From IMG/VR virus record IMGVR_UViG_3300025037_000025, positions 1-31,942 of that record: a stretch of DNA of 31,942 bases; one strand, written 5' to 3'. Of the stretch, positions 4,909 through 31,942 are shown piece after piece (position 1 is the stretch's first letter; each line of letters opens with the position of its first letter). The position numbers and the translations under genes were made by a program. The notes under the pieces are model-generated. The model searched no databases. It saw only the letters and a program-made list of their open reading frames with translations, and was not told where the DNA came from. The DNA comes from a virus.

Positions 4909-4981
4909 AAATAATAGACCACATTTAGGAGAAAGAACGAAGTTTATTATATAAATTAGGAATAAAAATAAAAATATAATT

Positions 4982-5011
4982 CATAATTTATGGCTATAGT
5001 ATTTTTATAAT
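4982..5011 (+). promoter_or_regulatory. Candidate cidA promoter and LysR-type operator
   Basis: A perfect -10 hexamer TATAAT at 5006-5011 lies 32 bases before the cidA ATG. The expected -35 position (about 4983-4988) has no good match, as expected for an activator-dependent promoter. An exact 11-bp palindrome, CATAATTTATG (4982-4992), covers that position and could be part of the site bound by the divergent LysR protein. This is an inference from position and symmetry. Confidence 0.45.
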
Positions 5012-5043
5012 AAGGGGTGTCGAGTTAACAAACAACAACTATT

Positions 5044-5535: not shown

Positions 5536-5544
5536 GGATTTGCG

Positions 5545-6243: not shown

Positions 6244-6304
6244 GCTCAAGTTCAGAGTATAAGAGAAAAGATATCAATAACTCTTATTTGGTTTAGCATG
6301 TTGA

Positions 6305-6346
6305 CATACTCCCACCCAGCCTAACTATTGTGGGGTTGGGAGTATG
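6305..6346. repeat. Palindrome between convergent cidB and reductase genes
   Basis: CATACTCCCA (6305-6314) pairs with TGGGAGTATG (6337-6346), with further C/G pairing inside and a loop around TAACTATTG. There is no T-tract on either side, so it is not a textbook terminator, though its place between convergent ends would suit one. GC-rich imperfect hairpins like this also occur as REP-like elements or as end structures of IS200/IS605-type elements. Which one applies cannot be decided here. Confidence 0.5.
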
Positions 6347-6355
6347 CCCATATAA

Positions 6356-10313: not shown

Positions 10314-10322
10314 GACTCCAAA

Positions 10323-10361
10323 GGAACACCCCAAAGGCAAAACAGCTTGACCCCTTAAACT
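10323..10361 (+). promoter_or_regulatory. Candidate late promoter, GGAACAC copy 2
   Basis: GGAACACCCCAAA at 10323-10335 is followed by TAAACT at 10356-10361, 33 bases from motif start to hexamer start. The -10-like hexamer overlaps the left arm of the terminator hairpin at 10351-10405. A separate sigma-70-like pair, TTGACC (10347-10352) and TATTAT 16 bases on, is an alternative promoter here. Confidence 0.55.
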
Positions 10362-10405
10362 AAGGCCATATTATTAATATTTATGCCTTGTTTAAGGGGT
10401 TTTTT
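10351..10405 (+). terminator. Strong terminator hairpin abutting the next start codon
   Basis: CCCCTTAAAC (10351-10360), a bulged T, and AAGGC (10362-10366) pair with GCCTT (10385-10389) and GTTTAAGGGG (10390-10399), followed by TTTTTT (10400-10405). This 15-bp stem is an excellent intrinsic terminator for the preceding gene. Its right arm also contains AAGGGG, the ribosome-binding site of the gene starting at 10407, so in a readthrough transcript that site would be hidden. Confidence 0.8.
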
Positions 10406-10406
10406 C

Positions 10407-11339
10407 ATGGCTAAGAAAACGAAAGTTATTACATACAACCTGGCGGATCGTGGCCGCAAATACAACGGCCAGGACCGTTCAGATTTAGATATTCGCTCAA
10501 TGGTTAACAAGATTAACTCACCAGAGGTTCAAGAGCTTGTTAGCAGTGGTGATTTGTTTGGCTTTAATGGCCATGAGATACGAGCACGTTTTGGCATGTA
10601 CCCACCAGACCAATGGGTGGATGAAAAGACGGGCCGTATTATTAAAATCCAGCCAGCCTTACGCACGATCAGGCTTGAAGCTGACGATGACGGCAACGTT
10701 GTTACCCAGCATGAGTTCTTAGATACAGACGACGGCCAATTTGCAGCACGCTTATACGCGAATAAAGCTGGCGGGTTTAGCAGTGCTATTAACCGCAGAC
10801 GCAAGCCAGACGGATATTATGAGGTTACTGGCTTCCATGGCTTTGACTATGTGCGAACACCTAATTACGCGACAAACAAAGGCGATGGCATCTTTGACAG
10901 TATTTTAAACGGTGCTTATACGGAAGGTGAGGCATGCTTTGATAGCCTCATTGATTTACCGCAGGATCAGATTGTCTTAAAAGAGGCCTTAGAGCGTATC
11001 ATCGTTGCTCAATACGATTCAATGCAAACGGCCCTACATTCAGAGTCACTGGTAAGCCATTATCAGCGTGAAGCACTAGCGGCCCAGGACGCTTTGATCA
11101 ATGCAGAAATGCGCCGGCAAAAAGTATTGGAACGCAAGAAGCAGCGAGAATTAGAGCTTTTTGACAGCCTAATTTGCCCATCTAAGCCGTTTGATGAAAT
11201 TAAGGCTCAATGGGATAGCTTTCATATTGGCAATACGTCAGACGCAGATTTACGCATAAGCGAGCTAGATAAAGCGGCTGGCAAGTCAGATAGACAAGAA
11301 GAGCGCATCAGCATCGTTGATAGATTCCGTGGCCTTTAA
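10407..11339 (+). CDS. Putative prohead protease fused to scaffold-like helices
   Basis: A 310-residue protein using the ATG at 10407, preceded by AAGGGG at 7 bases; an in-frame ATG at 10383 lies in the hairpin and is less likely. Residues 1-160 could be an assemblin-type capsid maturation protease. The support is His56 (F-N-G-H-E-I-R), Ser125/Ser126 in G-G-F-S-S-A-I 69-70 residues later, and the A-A-R-L-Y-A-N-K-A-G-G-F pattern seen in prohead proteases. From about residue 185 the protein is charged helix (Q/E/R/K-rich), as in scaffolds, which are often fused to the protease. It precedes the neck-like and terminase genes. No family is firmly recognised, so a different virion protein is possible. 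Confidence 0.45.
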   Translation: MAKKTKVITYNLADRGRKYNGQDRSDLDIRSMVNKINSPEVQELVSSGDLFGFNGHEIRARFGMYPPDQWVDEKTGRIIKIQPALRTIRLEADDDGNVVTQHEFLDTDDGQFAARLYANKAGGFSSAINRRRKPDGYYEVTGFHGFDYVRTPNYATNKGDGIFDSILNGAYTEGEACFDSLIDLPQDQIVLKEALERIIVAQYDSMQTALHSESLVSHYQREALAAQDALINAEMRRQKVLERKKQRELELFDSLICPSKPFDEIKAQWDSFHIGNTSDADLRISELDKAAGKSDRQEERISIVDRFRGL

Positions 11340-11353
11340 TTAAGGATTGAGCA

Positions 11354-12361
11354 ATGAGCAAGACAAAACGACTGCTATCACCGCTTGAATGCTTACAGAT
11401 AGCTTGGGCCATGAAACTAAGAGACTTTAGACAATGGTGCATGCCAACCACTCAGGGCGTTTATGACTGGAAACGACGCAGGTTGGAAGCAGCTATTGTT
11501 GTGGCTAAAACATCAATGGTTGATGACGTAGAGGGCATGCTAAAAGCAATACAAGAGAATGATAACGCAAAAAACGCTGGTTATAAAAATGAGTCCGGTT
11601 CGTCTGTTTACTTGCCAGTGCTTATGACGGCCATTAGTCCGATTGAAACGCCGCCTGAATATGACCAGGTAGGCGGCTTACCGTATTGGGTAAACGTGGT
11701 ACTACCTCAAGACCCATTAAAGCGAGTAGTGCAAATGCGATCGGTTCCCGTGGCTTATCGCTGTCAAATTGCCTTTTTTAGCCCCGATCCCCACAGTGCA
11801 TCAGATATTGCCAGGCAGTTTGCGAATTTTTGGAAACACGAAGAGAAAAGAACATTCCCAGTACCTTATGACGTTGGGGTTTTTGAGGGTAAGCCAATTA
11901 AAGATGACTGGAATTTTAGGGTGTTAGAAAACAGTCTTTATCCTGATAGTGCAACAACCGATCTTAAAAACCTGTTTATCGCCACTGTTGATTGCACCAT
12001 TGTCGGTGCTATTCCTGAGTTTGTAGGCTTGGGCGGTGCTTGGGACGAGGTGACCGATACTGGAGAGCCATACGAGAGCTTACCGACGCGGCCTAATCCT
12101 AATTATGATCCAGAGAAGCCAACGATACCGCTTGACCCTAATAATCCTAACGGGCCCGCGATTAACAGCCCAAGAGAGCCAATACCAGGCGAGGGCGGCA
12201 AGCCAATTGGGGGAAGCCGTGATAGTTATGAGAAGCTTAATAGCTTTGTTACTGAGGCAGACGTTACCGATGACTATACAGAGTTGGGAGTTAAGGTCGC
12301 TATTGATCTTAAAACAGGTGTAATCACCGAAACTAAGATAGAGCCACCTAGCAATGAATAA
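11354..12361 (+). CDS. Putative neck or tail-terminator virion protein
   Basis: A 335-residue protein. Residues about 90-225 form a beta-rich domain with Y-W-V-N-V-V-L-P, V-A-Y-R-C-Q-I-A-F-F-S-P-D-P and L-F-I-A-T-V-D-C-T-I-V-G-A-I-P-E-F segments. The overall pattern, including a W-x-F-x-V-L-E-N-S-L-Y-P-D stretch, resembles tail-completion or neck proteins of large myophages. A Pro/Asn-rich linker spans about 245-285, and a small acidic C-terminal tail follows. A GGA-containing ribosome-binding site is present, and the gene overlaps the next by 8 bases. The functional call is tentative; its place between protease-like and terminase genes fits head-tail joining. Confidence 0.35.
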   Translation: MSKTKRLLSPLECLQIAWAMKLRDFRQWCMPTTQGVYDWKRRRLEAAIVVAKTSMVDDVEGMLKAIQENDNAKNAGYKNESGSSVYLPVLMTAISPIETPPEYDQVGGLPYWVNVVLPQDPLKRVVQMRSVPVAYRCQIAFFSPDPHSASDIARQFANFWKHEEKRTFPVPYDVGVFEGKPIKDDWNFRVLENSLYPDSATTDLKNLFIATVDCTIVGAIPEFVGLGGAWDEVTDTGEPYESLPTRPNPNYDPEKPTIPLDPNNPNGPAINSPREPIPGEGGKPIGGSRDSYEKLNSFVTEADVTDDYTELGVKVAIDLKTGVITETKIEPPSNE

Positions 12362-18176: not shown

Positions 18177-19985
18177 ATGAATAAAGAACAAGCCAAACAA
18201 CATTTATCCGTTGTTTCTAGTGAATTAACCAAAACACGCCAATTTATGCGTGAATTTGCGAAGTTCGACACCAAACAATCTGACGTTGCACAATTTGACT
18301 CAATGATCGCAGCCAACTCGCATGACCGTGAAATGGGATTACAGGCAATTCCTGAGTCATTGCAAAAACTGTTAGAGGCTCAAAACATCGCAGCTACAAC
18401 AGCTGGCAAGCAAGCGGTATTTGACGGCTTACGTGATGGTATTGCAGAGTATCAACGTCGTAACGGCGGTGATATGCCACCAGTAGAAGTTGTGCAATCA
18501 GCTTTATCAGCTGCTACCGCATTTACTGAAAACGCGCATCGCGGTGATGACAATGATCCATCGTTCGACAGCCTATCATTTAGCCACCATGAAGCCTTAT
18601 CAGTAGTACCAGCTGCCGTACAAGTTGTTATTACTATGGGTATCGCAAACAGCCTCCCATTAATCTCAATGCTACCTAACCCTACTGGCTCAAACGAAGT
18701 GCCAATCGTTGCCGGCGAAGGTACCGCTGGCATGGATATGGGCGTTATGCGTCGTGGTGAATTAATCGACGGTGAAAAAGCTGGTTTACCATACTTCGAT
18801 AACCGTCACCTATTGGTAATGGAAGATGCTGGTGAGGGTAAGTTCACCCTTGAATCACATGTTGCTTACACTAAAGAAATTCGTGACAACAAAACTACCA
18901 AGTTTGTTGTAGATAAAGACTCTATCAAAGCTCCATTCTTGGGCGGTCGAGTTAGCATTAAAGTTCGCGGCGTGGAAGTTGCTAATGATAATCATCGAAA
19001 CCACCCAACTTTTGGCGGTAAGAGCACGTTACAGCCGCTTGAGCCGGTTACTTTAGGCGCTGATACCTTTATCGTTAAGTCAGCAGTTGCAGACCTTGAC
19101 AATCACACAGTTGAAGTTGCTTTTGACACTACCGATGGTGCTACCCCAGGTGCAGATGAAGTAGAAGTTGAATTAATCTTTGACTATGAACGTAAAGACG
19201 AGAAAGGTGAGTATATTTTACGCGCCCCAAGTCACGACATGGCGTTTAACTACTATGGCGTTTACGCTTATCCAAGCCGCGCACGTTCAAGTGCTACCAT
19301 CGACGCTATCACCCAGCTACAAAATGAGCTTGGCATTAACTGGTATGCAGCCGCTCAAATGATCTTTATCAACAAGTACAACTTTGAGCAAAACGGCCGC
19401 TTGCTACGTGGTGCAGTTAACCAGTGTTTAGCTAATCAAGAGAAGCATGTCAAAGTGTTTGATGCTGATATCGCTGGCGTGACTCATACCACATTAACTG
19501 ATCTTTACTCAAACATTCGTGTTGTCCTAGGTAAAGCTCGTACCGCACTATCAACAATCACCAACACAGCTATTGGTCAGTACGATTTATACGTGTCAGA
19601 CCGTGGTGCAGCGTTCTTTGAAGCTATGAGCCGCGACGAATATACCCCAACTGGCGAGCAGTACGGTGATCAATACTCAATCTACCGCATTGGCCAGTTA
19701 AACACTGGTGCAAACATTTACTACGTGCCAGCCTCAATGGGCGTGTTCAACGAAGATGAATTAACCCAGGGCGGCTATGCGTTGTTAGTACCACGTGCAA
19801 CAACACCAGCTAAAGCACCATTCGTAGGTACTGTGGCAGTCCCAACTATGGTTCTAGCATCATCAGCCAATGCGTTTGAAAAAGACGTAGCGGTTTATAA
19901 CCGTATGGCAGCAGAAGCTAACCCAATTCCACGTTATCGCAATCAGTGCATGTTAATTGAATTACGCAATTTACCAACACTTTAA
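18177..19985 (+). CDS. Major capsid protein
   Basis: A 602-residue protein, the best capsid candidate in the window. The N-terminal 110 residues are helical and Gln/Lys-rich, like a delta domain removed on maturation. HK97-like features follow: an extended E-loop-like stretch rich in G, M and E (about 180-215), an inserted beta-rich segment at about 225-345 (V-S-I-K-V-R-G-V-E-V, V-E-V-E-L-I-F-D-Y), and helices plus strands to the end (A-I-T-Q-L-Q-N-E-L-G-I-N-W-Y). Codon use is strongly biased toward CGT, GGT and GCT, as in highly expressed genes. It has its own terminator-bounded promoter region and an AGGAAG ribosome-binding site. Length is above the usual 300-400, consistent with an inserted domain. 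Confidence 0.7.
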   Translation: MNKEQAKQHLSVVSSELTKTRQFMREFAKFDTKQSDVAQFDSMIAANSHDREMGLQAIPESLQKLLEAQNIAATTAGKQAVFDGLRDGIAEYQRRNGGDMPPVEVVQSALSAATAFTENAHRGDDNDPSFDSLSFSHHEALSVVPAAVQVVITMGIANSLPLISMLPNPTGSNEVPIVAGEGTAGMDMGVMRRGELIDGEKAGLPYFDNRHLLVMEDAGEGKFTLESHVAYTKEIRDNKTTKFVVDKDSIKAPFLGGRVSIKVRGVEVANDNHRNHPTFGGKSTLQPLEPVTLGADTFIVKSAVADLDNHTVEVAFDTTDGATPGADEVEVELIFDYERKDEKGEYILRAPSHDMAFNYYGVYAYPSRARSSATIDAITQLQNELGINWYAAAQMIFINKYNFEQNGRLLRGAVNQCLANQEKHVKVFDADIAGVTHTTLTDLYSNIRVVLGKARTALSTITNTAIGQYDLYVSDRGAAFFEAMSRDEYTPTGEQYGDQYSIYRIGQLNTGANIYYVPASMGVFNEDELTQGGYALLVPRATTPAKAPFVGTVAVPTMVLASSANAFEKDVAVYNRMAAEANPIPRYRNQCMLIELRNLPTL

Positions 19986-20085: not shown

Positions 20086-20538
20086 ATGACAGAACCAAAA
20101 CAAGTACCAGGCAATTTAGCAGAGCTTGTTATCACCCCTGGATATGCAGAAGTTGATGAAACCTATACGGTTAAAGAGCTGCAAGCAGAGCTTAAAGGCC
20201 TGGGCGTTGCTTATCGCTCAAGCGATAGTAAAGACGCTTTAGTATGGCGATTTCTTGACGCTCAACAAGAAGGCGTTAAGCCAGAGGTAGAGCTTGGACC
20301 AGAAGTAGAGCAAGAAGCTGAGCTTGAACCAAAACCAGAAGCGAAAAAAGAAGAGTTTGAAAAAATCACTGTTTATAACAGTGGCTCATACAATCTATAT
20401 GATCCACATAGCCGCACTTTATTTTACGCTCGTAAAGAAGCGGTTATCGAATTAAAGCCAAGCATTACTAAAGAGCGAGTGTTGCGCAATATCGAACAGA
20501 TCAACGCGACACGCGGCAAAGTTTTAGTAATTCGTTAA
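20086..20538 (+). CDS. HeH-domain head-tail connector-like protein
   Basis: A 150-residue protein. Residues about 26-62 (Y-T-V-K-E-L-Q-A-E-L-K-G-L-G-V) look like the HeH/LEM-type helix-extended-helix motif often found in small proteins encoded after phage capsids. Residues 63-95 are a disordered E/P/K-rich linker. The last 55 residues form a small beta-rich domain. Proteins of this plan are annotated as head-tail joining, capsid-associated or Rho-N-domain phage proteins. GAGG lies about 8 bases before the ATG, and the gene sits between two terminators. Confidence 0.5.
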   Translation: MTEPKQVPGNLAELVITPGYAEVDETYTVKELQAELKGLGVAYRSSDSKDALVWRFLDAQQEGVKPEVELGPEVEQEAELEPKPEAKKEEFEKITVYNSGSYNLYDPHSRTLFYARKEAVIELKPSITKERVLRNIEQINATRGKVLVIR

Positions 20539-20592: not shown

Positions 20593-21846
20593 ATGTTAAA
20601 CAGCAATACTTTAGGACGTGCAGTAGGCATAAGCCAGGACGAAGTATCTGGAAATTCCGGCCCAAACGTACCGTCAATCAATCAAAATGGCGTGATTGTA
20701 GGCCGATTTAAACGCGGCCGTTCAGATAAGGCGTTCAAGGTCAATTCCCAAAACTACAAGGCCTTATTAGGCGAAGATAGAACCAATCCAAGCTACACAA
20801 TCGTTCAAGATGCTTTTATTGCTGGTGCCTCTGAATTATGGATTTTGCGTATCGGTAATCCCACCCTAAAGCTTAGCAATGAGACTGAGATTACCGACGG
20901 GAAGAAATTTGAGCAAATAGCATTTGAAAGTAATTTATACCCAATACCAGTCATCAAAGATGATATTTACAAGCCATTGGTTAAGCTGCTTGACGTTGAA
21001 TTGAGATCGCTAATCAAAAAAGCAGCCGATGTTGTAGATGCATACTTTCCTAGTATTAATCACTTTGATATTGAAAAAACGACATTTGGGAAGGCGTTTG
21101 ATATCACAGAAGGCTATCAGACAAAAATTGACCCGCTTCATATTCACCTAGGGTCAGTAGTTAAACAACCAGTGCCGATCGTAGACGGTTATCAGGCGGG
21201 ATTTGAGGCTCTTTCACTATCACTGCGTTATGGCTTTAAATCATTTGAATATGAATACGGTTACCGTGCATCAGCCAAGCAGTTAAACATTGAGCGTATA
21301 TCGAAAATTAAAGAAAAAGAGGTGGGTTCAAGATATACGCATCAAGCTGAAATACTAGATGTTCGATTATCACAAGCATTACAGACTCATAGCTTAAACA
21401 TAGGAACAGGCTTCTATACGCAAACTTACACCTTGCTAGACTTAACCATATCGAGCGGGCTAGTTGAGACAGCCATTAATACTGAAGGCTACCAGGTACA
21501 GATTGAGCAGTTATCACTGGTATTACAACAAGCATTAAGCGTTGTTGATATCAAGGTTAATAGCGGTTACTTGCCAGCCATTGAGGCGTTGAGTGTTCAC
21601 TTAACAGACAAAGGCCAATACGCAACATTAAATGATGGTTATCTCGCTAATTTAGAGCAGTTAAATATCGAATATGTCAGCTACCTTGCTGGCAATTATG
21701 ATGCAAATAGCGGCTATTTAGTTGGAGTTGAAGCCTTGGATGCAGCCAAGGTTAATTTTGAGCAAGTGGATATAGATGTTTCCCAGGACGGCTACACCCC
21801 AATTATTAAACCACTAGATATCTTTACAACACAGAGGATTAAGTAA
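20593..21846 (+). CDS. Sheath-N-domain-like protein with about 12 tandem GY repeats
   Basis: A 417-residue protein in two parts. Residues 30-90 (G-V-I-V-G-R-F-K-R-G ... A-L-L-G ... E-L-W-I-L-R-I-G) resemble the small N-terminal domain of tail-sheath-type proteins and are clearly homologous to the protein at 23413. From about residue 123 to the end there are roughly 12 tandem units of 24-26 residues with a loose consensus (E/D/S)-G-Y-x5-(E)-x-L-(D/N/S)-(I/V)-x-(L). I do not know this repeat; alternating hydrophobics suggest stacked beta-hairpins or a solenoid. AAGGG lies 9 bases before the ATG. It starts the fibre cluster, and its stop overlaps the next ATG by one base. It is probably a tail spike or fibre component. 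Confidence 0.6.
   Translation: MLNSNTLGRAVGISQDEVSGNSGPNVPSINQNGVIVGRFKRGRSDKAFKVNSQNYKALLGEDRTNPSYTIVQDAFIAGASELWILRIGNPTLKLSNETEITDGKKFEQIAFESNLYPIPVIKDDIYKPLVKLLDVELRSLIKKAADVVDAYFPSINHFDIEKTTFGKAFDITEGYQTKIDPLHIHLGSVVKQPVPIVDGYQAGFEALSLSLRYGFKSFEYEYGYRASAKQLNIERISKIKEKEVGSRYTHQAEILDVRLSQALQTHSLNIGTGFYTQTYTLLDLTISSGLVETAINTEGYQVQIEQLSLVLQQALSVVDIKVNSGYLPAIEALSVHLTDKGQYATLNDGYLANLEQLNIEYVSYLAGNYDANSGYLVGVEALDAAKVNFEQVDIDVSQDGYTPIIKPLDIFTTQRIK
20956..21840 (+). repeat. Coding array of 25-residue GY repeats
   Basis: About 12 units of 72-78 bases, diverged at DNA level but clear in protein: the repeated element is G-Y/A-Y, five residues, then E/K-x-L-x-I. The best-conserved units are in the last third (about 21480-21830). 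Confidence 0.65.
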
Positions 21847-22823
21847 TGAAAACAGGTTTTGCAGGCGAGCTGCGTTGCGTTGTCAAAAAGAAAGACGGCT
21901 CAACCGTCCAAGATACTGGCTACCAAAAGAACATGTTTCTTAACACAGGCTTAGATTTTTTTGGTGGTGGCCATGGTGATGATATTTTTGCTAACTGCTT
22001 AGTTGGTAGCGGTAACACGGCACCAGAAGCCACTCAGGCTAAGCTGATCAGTTTTGTAGCTAAGCATAACTCAATCGAGGCCACTGACAGCGGATCAGAG
22101 CCATATCTAAGCGGTGATCAGGATTTTAAAGCCTGGCGTTCTAGTACATATCGTTTTGAGGGTATCAGCGGCAAGACTATTTCAGAGGTAGGGCTGGCTA
22201 GCGAGTTTACAAGCAAAGATGAGTATCACCTTTGCACGAGAGCCTTAATTAAGAGTGCCGAAGGCGCGCCAATTTCTATCACTTTGAAAGATGATGAAGT
22301 GTTAGAGATAACCTACCGTATCTGGCAGGTTTTCGAACTGTCGGATAAAGACTTTTCTATCAAAATCACTGACGATATCGGAGGCGAGAAGCTGTATAAG
22401 GCTAAATGCCGCTTGTCTGGTATTGGTGATGAAGGGGCTTACTATGAATCTAAAGTAGGTATGGTGTTTGCAAAAGATACTGAGTACGCATCAGAGACGT
22501 ACAGTGAGTTTTACTCATACGCTGGCGATATTGGTGAAGTTACAGGCGTGCCTAATATTAATATGGGGGCAGCCGCGAGTGTAACTCTTAGTGACTACGA
22601 GGAAGGCTCATATACACGTGATATGAGTATTTTCTTTGGCCTTGATGATGCACGTTTCCCAGTTAGAAGCGTACTGGTGCCTACCACTATGGGTAACTAT
22701 CAGATTCAGTATGGCTCAAAAGACGGTGACGACCCAATTCCTAAATCCAAAAACGATACCTTGACAGTACCAATTCGCTTTACATGGGCTCGTTACGAGG
22801 GTGAGCTTAATGTTACCGAATAA
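21846..22823 (+). CDS. Fibre-cluster virion protein, unknown role
   Basis: A 325-residue beta-rich protein. The beginning (G-F-A-G-E-L-R-C-V-V, then D-T-G-Y-Q-K-N-M-F-L-N-T-G-L-D-F-F) is a pattern I associate with phage tail-fibre or baseplate-attached proteins, with a strand-rich remainder and a final W-A-R-Y-E-G-E-L. It contains no visible enzyme motif. It overlaps its upstream neighbour by one base and its downstream neighbour by 14 bases, so it is firmly in the fibre operon. The exact role is unknown. Confidence 0.55.
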   Translation: MKTGFAGELRCVVKKKDGSTVQDTGYQKNMFLNTGLDFFGGGHGDDIFANCLVGSGNTAPEATQAKLISFVAKHNSIEATDSGSEPYLSGDQDFKAWRSSTYRFEGISGKTISEVGLASEFTSKDEYHLCTRALIKSAEGAPISITLKDDEVLEITYRIWQVFELSDKDFSIKITDDIGGEKLYKAKCRLSGIGDEGAYYESKVGMVFAKDTEYASETYSEFYSYAGDIGEVTGVPNINMGAAASVTLSDYEEGSYTRDMSIFFGLDDARFPVRSVLVPTTMGNYQIQYGSKDGDDPIPKSKNDTLTVPIRFTWARYEGELNVTE

Positions 22824-23403
22824 CAAAATAAAGCGTGTCAGAAAATGGCTTGAAGATCTAAATGAGCCAAGGGATAGAAAACACCCTGATACACGCTCGT
22901 TTTGTTTGGGTGGTGCTGATATAGGCGATATCACCCAAGGTATAAAAGATTATGTCTGGCAGGCTTGGACGGACGGTGCAGCTATCTACTTGCAGCGTAC
23001 CGACGTTTCTAGGCCTGATAGAGTGCTAACCGACAAGAATATAACATCAGTTTCAGTTGCTTTTGATCGCAATATGAATCTGGTAATAGCTTACCAGGCT
23101 GGAATTGACTCCAAACTGTGGGTAGGTCGCAATGGCTCGCTTGTTGGCGGCATTGCTGCATCAATTAGAGGTGGTATAACCCCTATGGTGGCACTTGATG
23201 ACAATAGATATGCAACTGATATCACATCAGATGTGATATTTGCATACATCAGAGATTCAAAGCTTTGTTGTCGATACCAGCGTGACCGGTATGAGGTTGA
23301 GCGCGAATTGCAGGTGTTAGATAGCAATACAAGCTTGTATCGCATAGGTATGGGCAGGGATGAACGATTTTTATTCTTACTTCAAAAAGAGGTTAAAAAC
23401 TAA
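22810..23403 (+). CDS. Fibre-cluster virion protein, unknown role
   Basis: A 197-residue protein from the ATG at 22810, supported by GAGGGTGAG just upstream; a GTG three codons earlier is possible. The composition is beta-rich, with repeated strand-like segments (V-S-V-A-F-D-R-N-M-N-L-V-I-A-Y, V-I-F-A-Y-I-R-D-S-K-L-C-C-R-Y-Q) that look like successive blades or strands of a receptor-facing domain. It overlaps the preceding gene and ends 9 bases before the next. No family name is supported. Confidence 0.5.
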   Translation: MLPNNKIKRVRKWLEDLNEPRDRKHPDTRSFCLGGADIGDITQGIKDYVWQAWTDGAAIYLQRTDVSRPDRVLTDKNITSVSVAFDRNMNLVIAYQAGIDSKLWVGRNGSLVGGIAASIRGGITPMVALDDNRYATDITSDVIFAYIRDSKLCCRYQRDRYEVERELQVLDSNTSLYRIGMGRDERFLFLLQKEVKN

Positions 23404-23412
23404 GGCGGATCT

Positions 23413-23802
23413 ATGATCAACACTAAGATTTTAAAAACCGCTGTTGGCGTACAGCGTGGTGATGTTATTGATAAGACAGAATCCACGAAACTTCAAAACG
23501 TCACGAACGGTATCATCATTGGTCGGTTCAAACGTGGCGTTATGGGTATCCCATTTAAGGTCAATGAAGGCAATTTTTCAGCCATTCTGGGCCGTGATGT
23601 GGCAAACCCTAGTTTCCTAGCTATTGAGGACGCTTTAAACAGTGGATTGAGTGAAGTTTGGGTTATGCGAGTGGGTAGTAGCTATAAGCGTGCAGATGTA
23701 AGCGGCTTAGATGAATGCCTTAGCAAAGTTGCTAGAGACGACGATATGAGCGTAGGTGAGGACGGTTATATCCCTGATTATGAAGGCCAGAGACAGCAAT
23801 AG
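23413..23802 (+). CDS. Truncated paralogue of the sheath-N-domain/GY-repeat protein
   Basis: A 129-residue protein whose residues about 30-88 align with residues 33-88 of the protein at 20593 (shared G-R-F-K-R-G, F-K-V-N, A-L/I-L-G, N-P-S, D-A, E-L/V-W). After this domain it has only one short repeat-like remnant (E-D-G-Y-I-P-D-Y-E-G) instead of about 12. It could be a deliberately short, repeat-free adaptor or the product of a deletion. A GGATCT ribosome-binding region is weak. It lies in the fibre operon. Confidence 0.65.
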   Translation: MINTKILKTAVGVQRGDVIDKTESTKLQNVTNGIIIGRFKRGVMGIPFKVNEGNFSAILGRDVANPSFLAIEDALNSGLSEVWVMRVGSSYKRADVSGLDECLSKVARDDDMSVGEDGYIPDYEGQRQQ

Positions 23803-23812
23803 GAGTTTATTT

Positions 23813-23953
23813 ATGGCGTATGTTCTAGTAGAAGAAAGCAAGTTGCAAGAGTTTGAAGAAGCCTGCAAGCAGGCCTTAAAGGCTGACGACATTAAGTTGG
23901 GTAGTAGTTATATTTCAGATTATGAACAATCAGGCGAAGAAGAGGAAGGTTAA
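23813..23953 (+). CDS. 46-residue small protein in fibre operon
   Basis: A short frame with AGGAG 8 bases before its ATG, ending 2 bases before the next gene. It is acidic. Its residues 15-41 resemble the tail of the preceding 129-residue protein: both contain a pattern like E-x-C ... A-x-x-D-D ... G-x-x-Y-I-x-D-Y-E. The frame differs from the upstream gene. A longer in-frame ATG at 23756 lies inside the upstream gene and is unlikely. It may be a chaperone-like or regulatory small protein, but nothing shows its function. Confidence 0.55.
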   Translation: MAYVLVEESKLQEFEEACKQALKADDIKLGSSYISDYEQSGEEEEG

Positions 23954-23955
23954 GT

Positions 23956-26900
23956 ATGAGTATTAAAGGCGTCGTTATTGCGAAGGATGCAGACGTAAAA
24001 GAGCTCGCAGCCCGCATCGGTAAAGATGTTGGCGGTGTTGATAAGCTTGCGACTACCAATAAAAAGAGCATTGTTGATGCTATTAATGAGGTTAAAGGAG
24101 CAACCGTTAAAGCAGAAGAAATCTATGCTACCAAAGAAGAAGCTAGTAAGCTTGCCAGCAAGGTTGAGCTGAAAAAAGCTATTGATGATCTTGTCAACAA
24201 TGCTGACGATGACAGCGATACGCTAAAAGAGCTTTCTGATCAAATTGATGCTTTGGTAGAGACTGATAAGACCCTAGTAAGTGCTACAGAGGTCCAATCG
24301 TTTAAAGAGGCTAACAAAGAGATTGCTCGTAATAACATCGATGCAGTTTCAACGATCAACTTTAATAAGGCGATTGACACACTTACAAAAGATAAGGCCA
24401 CCCGTGTAGAGCTTAACCAGGCTAAGGCTGAATTAAACAGTTCTATCGAAACAAACAAGGCTGAATTGCAAGGCTCTATCAAGGCAGAAGAAAATGCTCG
24501 CAAAGCGGAAGGCACAGCCATTCGAGGCGAATTTACTAAGGCCGATCAGGATTTAAAGAAAGCCGTTGACGCAGCAGATGCAGCCATTCGCGTTGAGTTT
24601 GCAGCGGCTGATAAGTCGCTTAAAAGCGCAGTTGAAGCAGCAGATGCAGCTATTCGCAGCGATTTTACCCAAGCTGACCAGACTTTAAAGCAGGCCGTTG
24701 ATACAGCAGATGCGGCCATTCGTAGCGAATTTGCACAGGCTGATAAAGTGTTAAAAGCCACAGCAGATAAAGAGACAGCAGAGCGTAGAGAAGAAGATAC
24801 AGCTATTCGTAACGAGCTTGCTGAATCTAACAGACAGACTGAGCAAGCTATCGAAAAAGAAACAGCTGATCGCAAAGCAGCAGACGCAGCTATTCGTAAT
24901 GAGTTTGCCTTGGCTGACCAAGAGCTACAAAAAGCGATTGATTCAGAGGCAGCAACCCGTAAAGCACAAGACACTGATATTCGTAATAAGTACGCAACTA
25001 AAGTTGAGCTTACCCAGGCTATCACCGACTTAATTAACGGTGCTGATGTTGATTCTGACTCTTTAAAAGAGCTTGCCGATAAGATCACGGCCCTTGCTCA
25101 AGCTGACAAGGGTTTGGTGAGTGCAACAGAAGTACAGTCTTTCAAAGAAGCCAACAAAGAAGTTGCTCGCAAGAATATTGATGCAGTATCTAAAGCAGTT
25201 TTTGATGCAGCGGTAACTTCAATTAACGACGCTAAAGCAACTCGCAGTGAGCTTGCAGATACCAAGACAGAGTTATCTGAATCTATTAAGGCTAAGGGCG
25301 TTGAACTACAAAAAGTTATCGATGCAGAAGAGACTAGCCGTAAAGAGCAAGATACCGCTATTCGTGCCGCATTTGCTCATTCAGATACTATGGCTAAAGA
25401 GGCCCTTACAGCGTTTGTTAATACTAAAGAAACGGCCATGCGTAGCGAGTTTACCAAGTACGACGAGCTATTGCAGAAAACTATTGATGCAGAAGAAGTG
25501 GTGCGTAAGGTAGAAGATGCTTCTATCCGTAGTGAGTTTGCCCTGGCAGACCAAAAGCTTAAAGAAAATGTTAGAGAAACCATCAACGTTCGTGAAGCCA
25601 CTATTCGCAATGACTTCACCGACGCTGATCGACAGCTACAAACAGCCGTTAGAACAGAAGAGTGGGCCCGTAAGTCAGAAGATGCGGCCATTCGTAGCGA
25701 GCTGGCTAGAGGCGATCAACAAGTTCAAGCGATAGTTGATGCAGAAGTAAGAGATCGTAAAGCAACAGATGCGATTATCCGAAACGAGTTTGCACAAGCT
25801 GACCAACTACTTCAACAAGCTATCAATGCAGAAGGTGAAGCACGTAAGGCAGCAGATACAGCTATTCGTAACGAGTTCGCTACTAAAAACGAGCTTACCC
25901 AAGCTATTAATGACTTGATTAACGGTGCTGATGTTGATTCAGATACGTTGAAAGAGTTGGCCGATAAAATTACCGCCCTGGCACAAGCCGATAAAGGCCT
26001 AGTTAGTGCTACCAGTGCTCAAGCATTTAAAGAAGCCAATAAAGAAATTGCACGTAAGAATATCGACGCAGTATCTAAGGCTGACTTCAATGAAGCGGTA
26101 ACAACAGTCAAGAGCGACAAGGCCGATCGTGAAGAGCTTGAACAAGCCCAAAACACGCTAGCGGGTGCTATTAGTGCAAAAGGTGTTGAACTTCAAAACG
26201 CTATCAATGCAGAAAAGTCTGAACGCAAGGCACAAGACGTACTTATTCGTAGCGAATTTGCACAAGCCGATAAGAGCCTAAAAGAAGCAGTTGATGCAGT
26301 TGATGCGGCTATCCGTAGCGAGCTTGCCCAGTCTAGCCAGCAACTTCAAGAAGCGATTAGTGCAGAAGAGGGCGCAAGACTAGCAGAAGGTGCTGTTATT
26401 CGTAGCGAGTTTGCCCAAGCTGACCAAAAGCTAAAAGAAGCCGTTGATGCAGAAGATGCAGCGATCCGTAGTGCGTTTGCTAAGGCTGACCAGCAACTAC
26501 AAGCAGCTATCAATGCAGAACAAAAAGCACGTCAAGACGCTGATACTGCTATCAATAAGCAGATTGCTACTAAAGCTAATAAAGCCCCAGAAGGCGAGGA
26601 ATACGCTTTAGTTTCAGCGCTTCCTGATTTGGCCCCATACGCCACTAAGGACGAGCTAACACAGGCCATTGTGGACCTGATTAATGGCGCTGATGCCGAT
26701 TCTGATACGCTAAAAGAGCTCGCGGACAAGATCACAGCTTTAGCCCAGGCTGATAAAGGCTTAGTAAGTGCAGCTAACAAACAAAGCTTTAAAGTAGCTG
26801 AAAAAGAAACGGCCCGTAAAAACATTGATGCAGTGTCAACGGCAGAGCTTAGCAGCGCAGTAGAAAAACTTAGCAACACTCATTCTACACGCAGCGAACT

Positions 26901-27744
26901 TGCGCAAGCTAAAACTGAATTGACTGATTCTATTGAAGCTAATGCAAGCCAGCTGTTAGAAGCTATTGGTGCAGAAGAGGAAACCCGTAAAGCAGAAGAT
27001 GAAGCGATCCGTGGTGAACTTGCTAAGACTGGCGAGAAAATCCAAGAAGCTATCGACGCTATCCCAGAGATCGACTTAACCCCATTTGCTACTAAGGTTG
27101 AGTTAACAAAAGCTGTAACGGACCTTATCAATGGTGCTGATGCTGATTCAGATACATTAAAAGAATTAGCCGACAAGATTACCGCTTTAGCTCAAACCGA
27201 TAAGGGTCTGGTTAACGTAACAGTTGAACAGGAATTTACAGTAGAGCAAAAAGCACAAGGACGCAGCAATATTGGCGCAGCCTCAATTGATGATCTTGAG
27301 GCACAAAAAGAAGGCCTATTGGGTGGGATCGCAACTGCTATTGAGCCGCTGGCAACTAAAGAAGAGTTGAAAGCTAAGGCTGACAAGGCGCCAGAAGGCG
27401 AAGAATACGCCCTTGTTTCATCGTTACCTGGGTTAGTAGCACCTTATGCTACCAAGGACGAATTAACGCAAGCTGTTACCGACTTAATCAACGGTGCCGA
27501 TGCTGATTCAGATACTTTGAAAGAATTGGCGGATAAGATTACAGCGTTAGCTCAGGCTGATAACGGTATCGTTAGTGCAGCAAAAGCTCAATCTTTCAGT
27601 GCAGAACAGCAAAAGCAGGCACGCACCAATATTGCCGCTTTAGCAGAAGAAGATTTAGAGTTTGGTGAGGGTTATGCACAGTTGTTTGTAGCAGCCTTGC
27701 AAAAAGCAATCCAACTACCTGGCGATAACGCAGGAAATATTTAA
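23956..27744 (+). CDS. Giant repetitive coiled-coil tail fibre
   Basis: A 1262-residue fibre. Residues 1-45 form an attachment segment ending T-T-N-K-K-S-I-V-D-A-I-N-E-V, as in phage fibre N-termini. The rest alternates two kinds of repeat. The first is six copies of a module of about 75 residues with A-T-K-x-E-L-T-x-A-x-x-D-L-I-N-G-A-D then S-D-T-L-K-E-L-A-D-K-I, starting near residues 68, 346, 641, 894, 1044 and 1164. The second is long heptad stretches with A-I-R-x-E-F-A-x-A-D-x-x-L units. It should trimerise into a long rod. The tip (last 30 residues) is small, so receptor binding may be done by the downstream protein. The only gap to neighbours is 2-9 bases. Confidence 0.85.
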   Translation: MSIKGVVIAKDADVKELAARIGKDVGGVDKLATTNKKSIVDAINEVKGATVKAEEIYATKEEASKLASKVELKKAIDDLVNNADDDSDTLKELSDQIDALVETDKTLVSATEVQSFKEANKEIARNNIDAVSTINFNKAIDTLTKDKATRVELNQAKAELNSSIETNKAELQGSIKAEENARKAEGTAIRGEFTKADQDLKKAVDAADAAIRVEFAAADKSLKSAVEAADAAIRSDFTQADQTLKQAVDTADAAIRSEFAQADKVLKATADKETAERREEDTAIRNELAESNRQTEQAIEKETADRKAADAAIRNEFALADQELQKAIDSEAATRKAQDTDIRNKYATKVELTQAITDLINGADVDSDSLKELADKITALAQADKGLVSATEVQSFKEANKEVARKNIDAVSKAVFDAAVTSINDAKATRSELADTKTELSESIKAKGVELQKVIDAEETSRKEQDTAIRAAFAHSDTMAKEALTAFVNTKETAMRSEFTKYDELLQKTIDAEEVVRKVEDASIRSEFALADQKLKENVRETINVREATIRNDFTDADRQLQTAVRTEEWARKSEDAAIRSELARGDQQVQAIVDAEVRDRKATDAIIRNEFAQADQLLQQAINAEGEARKAADTAIRNEFATKNELTQAINDLINGADVDSDTLKELADKITALAQADKGLVSATSAQAFKEANKEIARKNIDAVSKADFNEAVTTVKSDKADREELEQAQNTLAGAISAKGVELQNAINAEKSERKAQDVLIRSEFAQADKSLKEAVDAVDAAIRSELAQSSQQLQEAISAEEGARLAEGAVIRSEFAQADQKLKEAVDAEDAAIRSAFAKADQQLQAAINAEQKARQDADTAINKQIATKANKAPEGEEYALVSALPDLAPYATKDELTQAIVDLINGADADSDTLKELADKITALAQADKGLVSAANKQSFKVAEKETARKNIDAVSTAELSSAVEKLSNTHSTRSELAQAKTELTDSIEANASQLLEAIGAEEETRKAEDEAIRGELAKTGEKIQEAIDAIPEIDLTPFATKVELTKAVTDLINGADADSDTLKELADKITALAQTDKGLVNVTVEQEFTVEQKAQGRSNIGAASIDDLEAQKEGLLGGIATAIEPLATKEELKAKADKAPEGEEYALVSSLPGLVAPYATKDELTQAVTDLINGADADSDTLKELADKITALAQADNGIVSAAKAQSFSAEQQKQARTNIAALAEEDLEFGEGYAQLFVAALQKAIQLPGDNAGNI
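24127..27650 (+). repeat. Coding repeats of the giant fibre
   Basis: Six modules of about 225 bases (near 24160, 24991, 25876, 26638, 27085 and 27445) plus many units of about 60 bases encoding A-I-R-x-E-F-A-x-A-D. They are similar enough at DNA level to recombine and make assembly of this region error-prone. Confidence 0.85.
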
Positions 27745-27753
27745 GAGGACGAC

Positions 27754-29604
27754 ATGAAAAAATTAGTATCACATGAAGAAATGCTAAAGCTGGTTCAAGC
27801 TTTAGCAGGTTCGATTGGCCAAAATTTAACCACGATTATTCAAGGTATTGAAGGTCTTTATCAGCAAACGGGCCGCCACTCAAATCAGATCTTTGAGATT
27901 GAACGAAAGATTGAAGAGCTAAATTTAAAGGTTGATAACTTCCACGCCCCTGATGTCGTTTTTAACGATGTAGGCCTAGATAAAGACTATTCAGGCCACG
28001 GTTGGTATAAAGCGACTGATACTGGCATTATTTATAACAAGGGTGTGCCAGAAGGTGAAACCCATGTATTCTCAGACGGTGATCCGACACAGTATTTAAG
28101 TGTCTACACTAAAGAGGACGCAGTAGATAATATTTATGTTGCGGCCACGTCAAATATAACTGATTTAAGCTCCGCTTTTTTCAATGAAGAAGAATACAAA
28201 TCGTTTTATAACGGTCAAAACCTATCTCACTGGGACGTGTCAAACGTAACTAACTTTGAGAAGATGTTTTTCTATGCCCAAGTCCCTGACATTGTAGGTA
28301 TTAGAAACTGGAAAACAAGTTCAGCAACCAACATGGCTCGCATGTTTACTATGGCTAACCTTTTTAATAGTGATATTTCAAAATGGGACGTATCAAACGT
28401 GACTAGTATGAGAAGTATGTTCTCTCAGGCGAGAGCATTTAACCAGGATATCAGCGGATGGGATGTGTCAAACGTTGAGGATATGGGGGCTATGTTCAAC
28501 TTTACCGATAAGTTCAACCAAGATCTATCTCAATGGTGTGTGGCTAAAATCCCAACTCAACCAGAAGGTTGGGAAGGCTATGAAAACATCGTACCTCCAG
28601 TTTGGGGTACGTGCCCACGAGGGGAGGATGGTTCTAACCCAAAGGCTGAGCCAGACGATCAAGGTTTAGCTAAAGACTACCCTGGCACTGGCTGGTATAA
28701 AGCTACTGACACTGGCGTTGTTTACAACAAAGATGTACCAAAAGGTGAGGTTCACACCTTCGAAGGCGATCCTAAAGAATATATTTCAGTTTATACCAAA
28801 GAAGATGCTTTTAAACATGCTGAATATGCTGCTACTTCAAACCTAACTGATATGTCAATGTTGTTTCGCGGAGAAAGTAGCTTTAATGGCGATATCTCGC
28901 ATTGGGACACCTCAAACGTTACCAATATGAGCAATATGTTTGCCGGTGCGACAGCATTTGATCAGCCGTTAAACTTTGATACCAGCAGTGTTACTAACAT
29001 GAGCGGTATGTTTCAAGGGGCTGAATCATTCAATCAGCCGTTAAGCTTTGACACCAGTAAAGTTACTATTATAAATAGTATGTTTTATGGTGCTACATCG
29101 TTCAACCAGCCGTTAAGTTTTGATACCAGTAAAGTTACCAATACGAGCTATATGTTTAGCGGTGCGACAGCATACAACCAACCAATAAAACTTGACACCA
29201 GTAATGTTACTGATATGAACAATATGTTCGCTAGGGCGGCATCTTTTAACAAGCCGCTAAGCCTTAATACCAGTAAAGTTACTAACATGAGCTGTATGTT
29301 TCAAGAAGCTACATCATTCAACCAGCCGTTAGACTTTGATACCAGTAGTGTTGTTGATATGAGGTATATGCTTAGCGAGGCGACAGCATTTAATCAGCCG
29401 TTAAACTTTGACACCAGTAGCGCCACTCTTATGAACGGCGCGTTCTCTAAGGCAGAATCGTTTAACCAAGATTTGTCGCAATGGTGCGTATCTAAAATCC
29501 CAAGTACGCCGCCGTTATTTGATGAAGATGCAAGCGCCTGGATTAAACCTCGTCCAGTTTGGGGCACCTGCCCGCGCGGTGAGGATCAAGCTGTGTTTGC
29601 ATAG
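27754..29604 (+). CDS. BspA/DUF285-repeat protein, probable receptor-binding adhesin
   Basis: A 616-residue protein. Residues 1-65 form a coiled-coil-like attachment region. Two homologous modules follow, each opening with G-L-x-K-D-Y-x-G-x-G-W-Y-K-A-T-D-T-G and closing with L-S-Q-W-C-V-x-K-I-P then P-V-W-G-T-C-P-R-G-E-D. Module A (about 74-291) has three BspA-type repeats; module B (about 304-612) has one 25-residue and seven 24-residue repeats of the F-N-Q-P-L-S-F-D-T-S-K-V-T-N-M-S-x-M-F type. Such repeats belong to the DUF285/BspA leucine-rich-like surface family of bacteria and mycoplasmas. Directly after the giant fibre and before the sheath, it is probably a fibre tip. Its stop codon overlaps candidate promoter copy 5. 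Confidence 0.8.
   Translation: MKKLVSHEEMLKLVQALAGSIGQNLTTIIQGIEGLYQQTGRHSNQIFEIERKIEELNLKVDNFHAPDVVFNDVGLDKDYSGHGWYKATDTGIIYNKGVPEGETHVFSDGDPTQYLSVYTKEDAVDNIYVAATSNITDLSSAFFNEEEYKSFYNGQNLSHWDVSNVTNFEKMFFYAQVPDIVGIRNWKTSSATNMARMFTMANLFNSDISKWDVSNVTSMRSMFSQARAFNQDISGWDVSNVEDMGAMFNFTDKFNQDLSQWCVAKIPTQPEGWEGYENIVPPVWGTCPRGEDGSNPKAEPDDQGLAKDYPGTGWYKATDTGVVYNKDVPKGEVHTFEGDPKEYISVYTKEDAFKHAEYAATSNLTDMSMLFRGESSFNGDISHWDTSNVTNMSNMFAGATAFDQPLNFDTSSVTNMSGMFQGAESFNQPLSFDTSKVTIINSMFYGATSFNQPLSFDTSKVTNTSYMFSGATAYNQPIKLDTSNVTDMNNMFARAASFNKPLSLNTSKVTNMSCMFQEATSFNQPLDFDTSSVVDMRYMLSEATAFNQPLNFDTSSATLMNGAFSKAESFNQDLSQWCVSKIPSTPPLFDEDASAWIKPRPVWGTCPRGEDQAVFA
28873..29480 (+). repeat. Tandem 72-bp BspA-type coding repeats
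   Basis: One unit of 75 bases and seven of 72 bases encode the F-N-Q-P-L motif repeat of module B. Adjacent copies are close in DNA sequence, which would allow gain or loss of units. The flanking module borders (27973 and 28663 starts) show that the whole domain was also duplicated. Confidence 0.85.
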
Positions 29605-29643
29605 GAACACCCCTAAACAATACTGTTAGCCCAACTCTATACT
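29604..29643 (+). promoter_or_regulatory. Candidate late promoter, GGAACAC copy 5 (sheath)
   Basis: GGAACACCCCTAAAC at 29604-29618 begins on the last base of the preceding stop codon. TATACT follows at 29638-29643, 34 bases from the motif start, the same spacing as copy 4. The predicted transcript start (about 29650) falls inside the terminator hairpin at 29645-29674. Confidence 0.55.
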
Positions 29644-29644
29644 A

Positions 29645-29674
29645 TGCCTATATTCACCAATATAGGCATTTTTT
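29645..29674 (+). terminator. Terminator hairpin touching the sheath start codon
   Basis: TGCCTATATT (29645-29654) and AATATAGGCA (29659-29668) form a perfect 10-bp stem with loop CACC, then TTTTTT (29669-29674), and the ATG begins at 29675. It would end transcripts coming from the fibre operon. The sheath gene has no clear Shine-Dalgarno apart from AGG within the stem. Confidence 0.85.
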
Positions 29675-31048
29675 ATGGCAACTCAACTGTTTATTAATAT
29701 CCTGCCTACTTCCGTTACTATCACCAATAGCAAGGAAAGTAAGGCATTAGCAACTATCGAGCTTGTTACTGAATACGGCTTTGATAACAACGTCGTAGCC
29801 AAGATACAAGTAGTTGATGATAAGACACCAACTAACGCAGCTGATCCGTTAAACAACCTGTTATTTGACATTACATTTGCAGATAAGGTTGATGATAGCA
29901 AGATCACATCACTGCAAGGCCGTCTATATACCGGCGGTGGCGCAGACGAGCTTGAAAACAACTATCCTAATGACTTCTCATATATCAGTCAAAAGCTTGA
30001 CTTCCATGGTGCGCTAGATAGCAGCAATGACTTCTTTGAGCAAGTAGAAACCACGTATTCTAAGACCAATGCTACTCAAGTCGTTTCAGCCCTAAAAGCC
30101 GTTAAAGCCTTAAAAGATCATGGCACTTACCGTAAAGCTGAAATTGTGGTTGACGTGCCAGCCAGCAAGGTTGTTGAGTCAACACCAGAACAGATTACAC
30201 GTAGCCTACTTGATATGCGTGAACGCCCACGCTATATCGTTGTTTGCTCAACTGACGATATGCCAACTATTGAAGCTACAACCAAAGTTATGGATAAGCT
30301 TAACTGTCACGTACTGCTAGATTTAGGCAATATTAATGACTGGGTGGCAGCCGCGGCACTTGCTGACTCAATTAACATTAAAGACCATCGTTTTTGGATA
30401 TTCTGGAACCCGAACGTATCACGCCCTTCAAACAGCGCAAGCGTACTATCACGTAAAAAATGGCGCCCTTGTGTCGGTGATTACCTAGGCCAATTGCTTG
30501 TTCGTAACGCCCTTACCAATGCGTCTGGTATCCCGCCTGTTAACCGTCCTGTTGCTGGTTACGACTTTCCCGTTAGCTTCCGTGATATGGAAGTGTTACC
30601 AAACGTCAGCCTTGATGAAGAGGCTCAAAACGCCCTAGCGGCTGCTGGCGTGAACGTGGTCTTAAACGAGCGTTTCGATGCAGGCGATCGCTGGATTTAT
30701 GGTGATGCTTTAACTCAGTACGATAGCAAAACAAGCGCTTTACGCTTAATCAACGCATCTGAAATCACAACTTACGTTGATAACGCAGTAGTTAGCATTG
30801 CTAAAAAGCACCTTCTCAAAGGTATGGCCAGCTATGTGAACGATGCAGACGCAGAAATCCGTCGCTTCTTGAACGCTTGTAGTTCAGCGGGCTTATTGCA
30901 ACCAGTTGCAGAGCTATCAGGCAAGCTTTACGGTCTAGAAGTTGCGCCAAGATCAGACAATCCATTTGAGAAGGTTGATATCAGACTTGTTAAACGCCCA
31001 GAGGGTTGTGCTCGACAAGTTTACTTTGAAACCACAATCACCAAGTAA
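29675..31048 (+). CDS. Contractile tail sheath protein
   Basis: A 457-residue protein with tail-sheath character. It has an alpha/beta N-terminal half (about 130-235) with Y-I-V-V-C-S-T-D-D and V-L-L-D-L-G strands, then a conserved C-terminal half with G-D-Y-L-G-Q-L-L-V-R-N, N-R-P-V-A-G-Y-D-F-P, A-A-G-V-N-V-V-L-N-E-R-F, W-I-Y-G-D-A-L-T and a T-Y-V-D-N-A-V helix. The order (N/S-R-P-V-A-G, then A-G-V-N, then G-D-x-L-T) is the signature of contractile sheaths that polymerise around the tail tube. This is the main evidence for a myovirus. Codon use is biased as in the capsid gene. A tail tube gene would be expected next. Confidence 0.7.
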   Translation: MATQLFINILPTSVTITNSKESKALATIELVTEYGFDNNVVAKIQVVDDKTPTNAADPLNNLLFDITFADKVDDSKITSLQGRLYTGGGADELENNYPNDFSYISQKLDFHGALDSSNDFFEQVETTYSKTNATQVVSALKAVKALKDHGTYRKAEIVVDVPASKVVESTPEQITRSLLDMRERPRYIVVCSTDDMPTIEATTKVMDKLNCHVLLDLGNINDWVAAAALADSINIKDHRFWIFWNPNVSRPSNSASVLSRKKWRPCVGDYLGQLLVRNALTNASGIPPVNRPVAGYDFPVSFRDMEVLPNVSLDEEAQNALAAAGVNVVLNERFDAGDRWIYGDALTQYDSKTSALRLINASEITTYVDNAVVSIAKKHLLKGMASYVNDADAEIRRFLNACSSAGLLQPVAELSGKLYGLEVAPRSDNPFEKVDIRLVKRPEGCARQVYFETTITK

Positions 31049-31087: not shown

Positions 31088-31942
31088 ATGTTAGTATCAA
31101 GCCATATTATCGAGCGTAACCAGGATCGCATGTTAGAGCGTCAAGAGTCACAATTTGACGCTACTAATAGTGCCAAGCAAGCCGCAGAATCTATTGAGTT
31201 TGACCCAATTGATGAGCGCATTGCCACGCATGCCACAACTCAAATGCGTTTAGCAGCACTGCAAGTAGCATTTATGCTGGCAGGCATCATGTCAGAGGTT
31301 GACTTTGAGGACCAAGAATTACTACCAAGCGAGCTTCTTGATAGCCTAATTCTTGAGGCGTTTGTTGAGGACCCAGACGATGATGATGATGAAATCGACT
31401 CAACTGTTAAGACTATCCTATCAGCGCATATTGCAGACGCTATGAGTACTTTGGGTGTTGATGAAGATTTGATTAATGATGTGTTTGATGGCGATGTTGA
31501 TATTGCAGATGCAGCTATTGAAACAGCGTCAGAAATCATCTTAGAGAACATGCCAGCAGACGACGAGCTAGACGACTTTATTTCAATCTTTGCATACGGT
31601 GACGAAGACACCTATGACGCAATGATGAAAGAAGAAGACGATGAAGATATGTACGACGCAGCCAAAAAGCCATTAACAGTTGGCCGCAAGACACGCCGCA
31701 AAGTAGGTAATAAGACTGTTACTTACAAGGCAGTTAAAGCGGTTCGTGACGGTAAAATCAAGGTTGTTAACAAGCGTATTGGTGGCAACGTCCGCTTGAG
31801 TGCAGCCCAAAAAGCGGCCCTTAAAAAAGCTCGCAAAAAGTCTGTAACGGGTACCGCAGTTAAAAAACGTATGAGGTCATTTGCTAAAGGATTGCAACGT
31901 AATATCTATAACATTGATCCACAAAAAGCACGCAATATGCGT
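31088..31942 (+). CDS. Acidic-to-basic virion-like protein, 3' truncated by window end
   Basis: An open frame of 285 codons from ATG 31088 to the window edge without a stop. AAAAAAGGAA lies about 11 bases upstream, and the gene follows the sheath by 39 bases. Residues 1-190 are strongly acidic, with a hydrophobic helix near 54-68 and a D-rich run at about 97-101. From about residue 192 the character flips to very basic (G-R-K-T-R-R-K, A-A-L-K-K-A-R-K-K, V-K-K-R-M-R). It is not a typical tail tube protein, and I do not recognise the family. Possible roles are scaffold or DNA-contacting virion protein. Confidence 0.6.
   Translation, partial: MLVSSHIIERNQDRMLERQESQFDATNSAKQAAESIEFDPIDERIATHATTQMRLAALQVAFMLAGIMSEVDFEDQELLPSELLDSLILEAFVEDPDDDDDEIDSTVKTILSAHIADAMSTLGVDEDLINDVFDGDVDIADAAIETASEIILENMPADDELDDFISIFAYGDEDTYDAMMKEEDDEDMYDAAKKPLTVGRKTRRKVGNKTVTYKAVKAVRDGKIKVVNKRIGGNVRLSAAQKAALKKARKKSVTGTAVKKRMRSFAKGLQRNIYNIDPQKARNMR

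Follow-up and report, generated by a model that had tools for sequence, protein, structure and literature searches.

What is a phage protein that joins a domain resembling part of a contractile tail sheath to a long tandem repeat, and where on the virion would it sit? The question is raised by a 417-residue protein encoded in the window (the whole stretch of viral DNA analyzed here, 31,942 nucleotides), which the sequence-only reading had tentatively called a new class of tail fiber or baseplate spike. Our conclusion is that the protein most likely serves as a plug-in by which a repeat fiber is hung on the exterior of the tail. The features on which the argument turns are collected in Table 1.

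Table 1. Features of the sheath locus, in window coordinates
Feature	Position	Strand	Basis
Probable major capsid protein; borders the ancestral sheath locus on the left	18177..19985	+	phrog_1014 (unknown function), E 2e-91
Small conserved gene between capsid and head genes	20086..20538	+	Conserved order
Gene of the 417-residue protein	20593-21846	+	ORF; head of ~90 residues, linker, and 12 repeat units
Head domain of the 417-residue protein (residues 1-90)	20593..20862	+	phrog_1036, AF2, Foldseek, alignment to P1 gp22 and one-chain sheaths
Linker, head to first repeat (residues 91-123)	20863..20961	+	Sequence; no library match
GY repeat array, 12 tandem units (residues 124-417)	20962..21843	+	No Pfam, PHROG, or PDB relative
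Tail-fiber-family protein	21846..22823	+	phrog_4176, E 8e-43
Second tail-fiber-family protein	22801..23403	+	phrog_4950, E 2e-35
Second head copy, 129 aa (head and 40-residue tail)	23413..23802	+	phrog_14345, E 2e-21; phrog_1036, E 1.5e-4
Sheath body, 457 aa, tail sheath without its first ~100 residues	29675..31048	+	phrog_1036, AF2/Foldseek, alignment
Conserved gene following the body; borders the locus on the right	31088..31942, runs off the window	+	Conserved order

Repeat array and head domain

The repeat part consists of 12 units of 24-26 residues each, starting at residues 124, 149, 174, 199, 223, 247, 273, 299, 325, 349, 374, and 400 and making up 70% of the protein; units 1, 2, 5, 7, and 12 are the more degenerate ones. 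Their consensus is GY-x4-E-x-L-x-[ILV], or more loosely [GD]-Y-x4-[E/K/D]-x-L-x-[ILVA]. The earlier description of a 25-residue GY tandem repeat in about 12 units was accurate, except that its spacer (x5, in G-Y-x5-E-x-L-x-I) was one residue too long. The array is far beyond chance: the pattern [GRNCS][YF]x4[EDPQI]x[LM][DSNAHP][ILVA] occurs seven times in the protein, versus 0.02 expected and at most two in 5000 shuffles, and the best 12-unit register scores 1.16 per column, versus -0.44 +/- 0.06 in shuffled tails (12 shuffles, each optimized like the real tail). Its alternating hydrophobic pattern suggests strands. In the AlphaFold model of the full protein the head is confident and the repeat part has a pLDDT of ~20-45. 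Searches of Pfam and PHROGs with residues 91-417 matched no family, and a phmmer search of the PDB with the repeat part gave nothing credible (best E 0.18, an unrelated RidA-family chain). A profile of the units found only its own gene in the phage genome, and tblastn of the whole protein against phages and plasmids gave matches in the head alone and none in the repeat. Across Pfam, PHROGs, and the PDB, the repeat thus remains one of no named family, with no match to a known fiber repeat.

The head, by comparison, is recognizable. It matches positions 10-65 of the tail sheath profile phrog_1036 (E 3.8e-4), and also three PHROG families listed as of unknown function (14345, 24956, and 5283). 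In its AF2 model, residues 31-89 reach a pLDDT of 71-92, and residues 1-31 are predicted to be unstructured or extended, as expected for a sheath arm. The top PDB matches of this model in Foldseek are the tail sheaths of KP1, phiCD508, T4, and P1 together with sheaths of contractile injection systems, at probabilities of 0.75-1.0 but with a best E no lower than 0.01, a result of the disorder in most of the model. Against BFVD, it matches stand-alone viral proteins of 91 and 115 aa (E 2e-6 and 1e-5). The Pfam profile PF22671 (Gp18_domIII_N) has no match in the heads of the window; several cargo-bearing heads of relatives match it weakly (E 0.01-0.055; 14-16.5 bits), under the curated cut-off of 27 bits. 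These profile and fold matches bear out the earlier impression that the head is sheath-N-like. As judged from sequence and model, it is the N-terminal piece of a sheath, predicted to comprise the inter-subunit arm and the first half of domain II.

A tail sheath encoded in two genes

The phage has a separate gene for the rest of a sheath. The body matches positions 110-531 only of phrog_1036 (E 2e-64), and the best Foldseek matches of its AF2 model are the P1 sheaths (E 6e-11). In all 11 related phage records the same profile detects separate heads (positions ~5-97) and a body (from 92-112, where the match is complete, to 531), and in none of these records, each searched whole, did it find a one-chain sheath. 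Placed end to end, head and body are collinear with P1 gp22 (529 aa) and with the other one-chain sheaths, those of Xanthomonas phage Rb1 (547 aa) and the Burkholderia plasmid pBVIE05 (539 aa), at 15-19% identity to gp22. In all eight head and body pairs tested by alignment, the break between the halves corresponds to gp22 residues 100-103. Domain II of gp22 spans residues 35-99 and 243-425, and domain III, which extends outside the sheath, residues 100-242 (PMC10304247); the break thus matches the published boundary between the two domains (99/100). Taken together, head and body give a full-length phrog_1036 match with a sheath fold in both pieces. That this phage makes its tail sheath from two separate genes is well supported by sequence, and on the same grounds head and body are a P1/PHROG 1036-type tail sheath in two chains.

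The sequence-only reading was therefore right to see a sheath N-terminal domain, but not in taking it for a look-alike, since the phage's own sheath gene lacks exactly that domain. This bears on its proposal that the protein is a stand-alone tail fiber or baseplate spike. Although the repeat array and the neighboring fiber genes would suit such a role, the two sheath halves are complementary, and the 417-residue protein matches no fiber, spike, or collar family in Pfam or PHROGs, so we give the proposal very little credence. We see no evidence for a location at the baseplate, and the anatomy favors instead a position along, or at the ends of, the sheath.

A split sheath is also found in a phage with observed tails. 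In Acinetobacter phage ABMM1, a 92-aa head gene (11718-11996) lies downstream of the body gene (9575-10870); the two are annotated as 'tail sheath protein', and a phrog_1036 search of the genome finds these split genes only. The contractile tails of ABMM1 have been imaged relaxed, partly contracted, and fully contracted (PMC10345192). With the body gene upstream of the head gene, fusion by read-through or frameshifting is impossible in ABMM1 and, given its contractile tail, the halves must assemble in trans.

Several other explanations of the split were considered and rejected. A frameshift or sequencing error does not account for it, as the split is kept over many genomes, with the halves up to kilobases apart and, in ABMM1, in reversed order. 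In four records (L104, L147, L149, and L162), 2-10 nt separate the head gene from the body gene; a programmed frameshift fusing such adjacent genes is impossible where the order is reversed or the genes are kilobases apart. A 528-aa head ORF in record L146, a candidate one-chain sheath, proved to be a head followed by a PEPE linker and cargo. The 'split' sheath of Salmonella phage 38 in databases was dismissed as a precedent: its pieces adjoin in shifted frames, the annotated portal and terminase are also in pieces, and the whole looks like sequencing error.

Gene order places the split in an ancestral locus. In Psychrobacter-type elements, the capsid gene is followed by a small gene, one or more heads, other genes, the body, and a conserved gene. 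Rb1 likewise has a small gene after the capsid gene, then a one-chain sheath and a further gene, and in P1 the sheath gene (22) stands between the capsid gene (23) and gene 21. By this shared order, window positions 20593-29675 lie between the two halves of the ancestral sheath gene. The assignment of the gene at 18177 as the major capsid protein is probable and comes from its position, which in Rb1 and P1 belongs to the capsid gene; the gene at 31088 likewise occupies the position of the gene after the sheath in these two. The Rb1 one-chain sheath is the product of a gene (L002:17023-18666) annotated as 'tail connector protein'.

Between the halves, the window encodes two fiber proteins, a 1262-aa coiled-coil protein, and a BspA-repeat protein, among others. 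The ATG of the first fiber gene overlaps the stop codon of the 417-residue protein gene, an order kept in L006 and L159, and translational coupling of the two genes is likely from this arrangement. The second head copy has a head 40% identical to that of the 417-residue protein; its tail (GYIPDYE) was rejected as a single GY repeat unit, without support from the unit profile. It is followed by a 46-codon ORF (23813-23953) whose end, DDIKLGSSYISDYE, resembles by eye the tail of the 129-aa protein, DDMSVGEDGYIPDYE. The long, repetitive coiled-coil protein (23956-27744) varies in length, with 164 aa in L006 and 1211 aa in L159. The DUF285/BspA-type repeat protein (27754-29604) has 616 aa, and its relatives 269, 287, and 581; in L030, a repeat of this type is fused directly to a sheath head. 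Outside the sheath locus, a cargo island at 4021-7234 holds, by Pfam, a LysR regulator, LrgA- and LrgB-family genes, and a short-chain dehydrogenase. This slot is occupied in G004, a near-identical phage, by genes that by eye resemble type I restriction-modification genes, so the site is variable.

Copies of the head and their cargo

At least one head is present in 25 of 299 Moraxellaceae genomes sampled. Across elements of this family (Psychrobacter, Acinetobacter, and Alkanindiges), heads occur bare (91-99 aa), short-tailed (110-144 aa), or with long C-termini (187-858 aa), and about 25 head proteins carry cargo at the C-terminus. Profile searches identified Ig/PKD/Hoc-like repeats in L028 and BspA/DUF285 repeats in L030 and L154; most other cargo matches no family. 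The search for the same head with other C-termini, which had been proposed with the sequence-only reading, thus found many, and this diversity agrees with its suggestion that the head serves as a docking module. By eye, many long cargo proteins have a cysteine motif just after the head (ISCxGA / ITCTP and similar; records L028, L036, L103, L148, L150, L151, L154, L155, and L158), and 'TVSRNGGxFxTF/YxLN' recurs in three of them, which hints at a possible common second domain.

In the tree, the 91- and 762-aa heads of pGFJ2 pair with each other with support, as do the 110- and 278-aa heads of L103, which indicates that head duplication is recurrent. The head of the 417-residue protein branches with the Ig-cargo head of L028 (support 98/94) and is 40-46% identical to the other heads in the same phage, and could thus have a specialized site. 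In the near-identical record G004, a bare 93-aa head of the window's kind lies ~9.5 kb beyond the body, past the point where the window ends. It bears on the reading in which the 417-residue protein is itself the main small subunit, with a GY-repeat arm on every sheath protomer. In favor of this reading, the gene directly follows the conserved gene at 20086, where the N-terminus of the sheath was ancestrally encoded. However, near-identical phages also encode bare 93-aa and 129-130-aa heads, and in single-head Acinetobacter prophages the head is bare, which makes a repeat arm on every protomer quite improbable.

Copies can also decay. In L155 (9127-9294), a head gene is stopped by a TAA after 55 residues, beside an intact 421-aa head protein; judging by its sequence, it is a decaying copy. 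Such degraded heads lend some color to the idea that the 417-residue protein, too, is a functionless remnant, a broken sheath fragment fused by accident to repeats. Measured against relatives 73-84% identical, however, dN/dS is 0.06-0.09 for the head, as opposed to about 0.17 for residues 91-417, values that cover most of the gene and indicate purifying selection, stronger in the head. The reading frame is open in every relative found with its 3' end and, with one-chain sheaths absent, heads are needed. Already disfavored by the selection test, the remnant idea is hardly credible.

A modular sheath and its known counterparts

We regard as probable a two-subunit sheath, with a TssB/TssC-like layout, in which the small subunit was copied with cargo and the 417-residue protein forms an outside appendage in some protomers. 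The small N-terminal subunit (~90 residues) would supply the inter-subunit arm and the first half of domain II, and the body would supply domain III, the rest of domain II, domain I, and the C-terminal arm; the two would associate noncovalently to form a single sheath protomer, in the manner of TssB and TssC of type VI secretion. Of the copies of the small-subunit gene, one would be bare (the 93-aa head downstream of the window) and others would have gained C-terminal cargo, the head of the 417-residue protein filling the small-subunit place in some protomers. By the P1 structure, the head ends at the point where the chain passes from domain II into the outward-facing domain III, and cargo attached there is accordingly expected on the surface of the tail. 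The 12-unit repeat would emerge at the base of this domain and be displayed on the virion as an appendage outside the tail, whose task would most likely be weak adhesion to the cell surface or anchorage of the coupled fiber proteins (21846-23403).

The main rival keeps the split sheath as described but confines cargo heads to its ends, where they would cap the first or last ring, on the side of the baseplate or of the terminator, and their cargo would act as a fiber. This is unlikely in our estimate, yet has points in its favor: the gene of the 417-residue protein adjoins the tail-fiber genes, with its stop overlapping the start of one; its head has diverged from the other heads; and the end ring of the P1 sheath uses the same arms to bind a partner protein (PMC10304247). 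Against it, cargo heads elsewhere stand alone, up to ~19 kb from the body and without these fiber genes. Moreover, several share 74-91% identity with a head in their own element that is bare or short-tailed (L103, pGFJ2, and L028), which suggests the same binding site. We thus favor placement of the 417-residue protein along the sheath.

More broadly, the sheath may be modular in this P1-like lineage: cut at the domain II/III boundary, with freed small subunits of varied cargo competing for sites and producing mosaic tails, a proposal on which our judgment is evenly divided. If it is true, the surface of the tail changes by gene duplication and domain swapping, with the contraction machinery untouched. 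If cargo is displayed, the small subunit would be a natural anchor for surface domains on contractile tails. The split sheath also gives a function to PHROGs 5283, 14345, and 24956, as sheath N-terminal subunit proteins with varied C-termini. In full-text searches of open-access literature, we found no report of a natural two-gene tail sheath in a phage. In a survey of 112 contractile sheath proteins the word 'split' is absent, and T6SS provides the two-protein sheath that it names (PMC9230969). The step between a one-chain phage sheath and the two-protein sheath of T6SS is thus seen here in a phage, where it becomes testable.

Among known systems, P1 gp22 (PDB 8jan, 8jaj, and 9ay3) is collinear with head and body and shares the order of capsid, sheath, and next gene; it is one chain, whereas here there are two genes, extra copies of the small subunit, and other genes between the halves. 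In the T6SS sheath, VipA/TssB contributes the N-terminal linker and VipB/TssC the C-terminal one (PMC5813253). The likeness to this two-gene sheath, in the division of these linkers between two chains, is one of layout and not of membership; neither heads nor body matched the T6SS sheath families of Pfam at E<=1. In TssB, a helix at residues 100-130 binds TssC (PMC3840085); the phage small subunit, at ~90 residues, is too short to have it. TssB/TssC also differ in that here we have a phage tail, whose small-subunit copies carry cargo. The N-terminal region of T4 gp18 domain III (PF22671) represents the same fold region, as seen in weak profile matches and a Foldseek match, but in T4 it is part of a one-chain sheath. 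The extra sheath proteins of AFP (Afp2-4) and PVC are whole sheath paralogues, whereas here only the N-terminal piece is multiplied. These eCIS likewise have several sheath proteins per particle (PMC10304247). Finally, Ig-like domains on phage sheaths and capsids (e.g., Hoc) are also surface-displayed repeats, and the cargo of L028 matches Ig/PKD and Hoc-like profiles; unlike these fusions, display here would use a separate, exchangeable sheath subunit.
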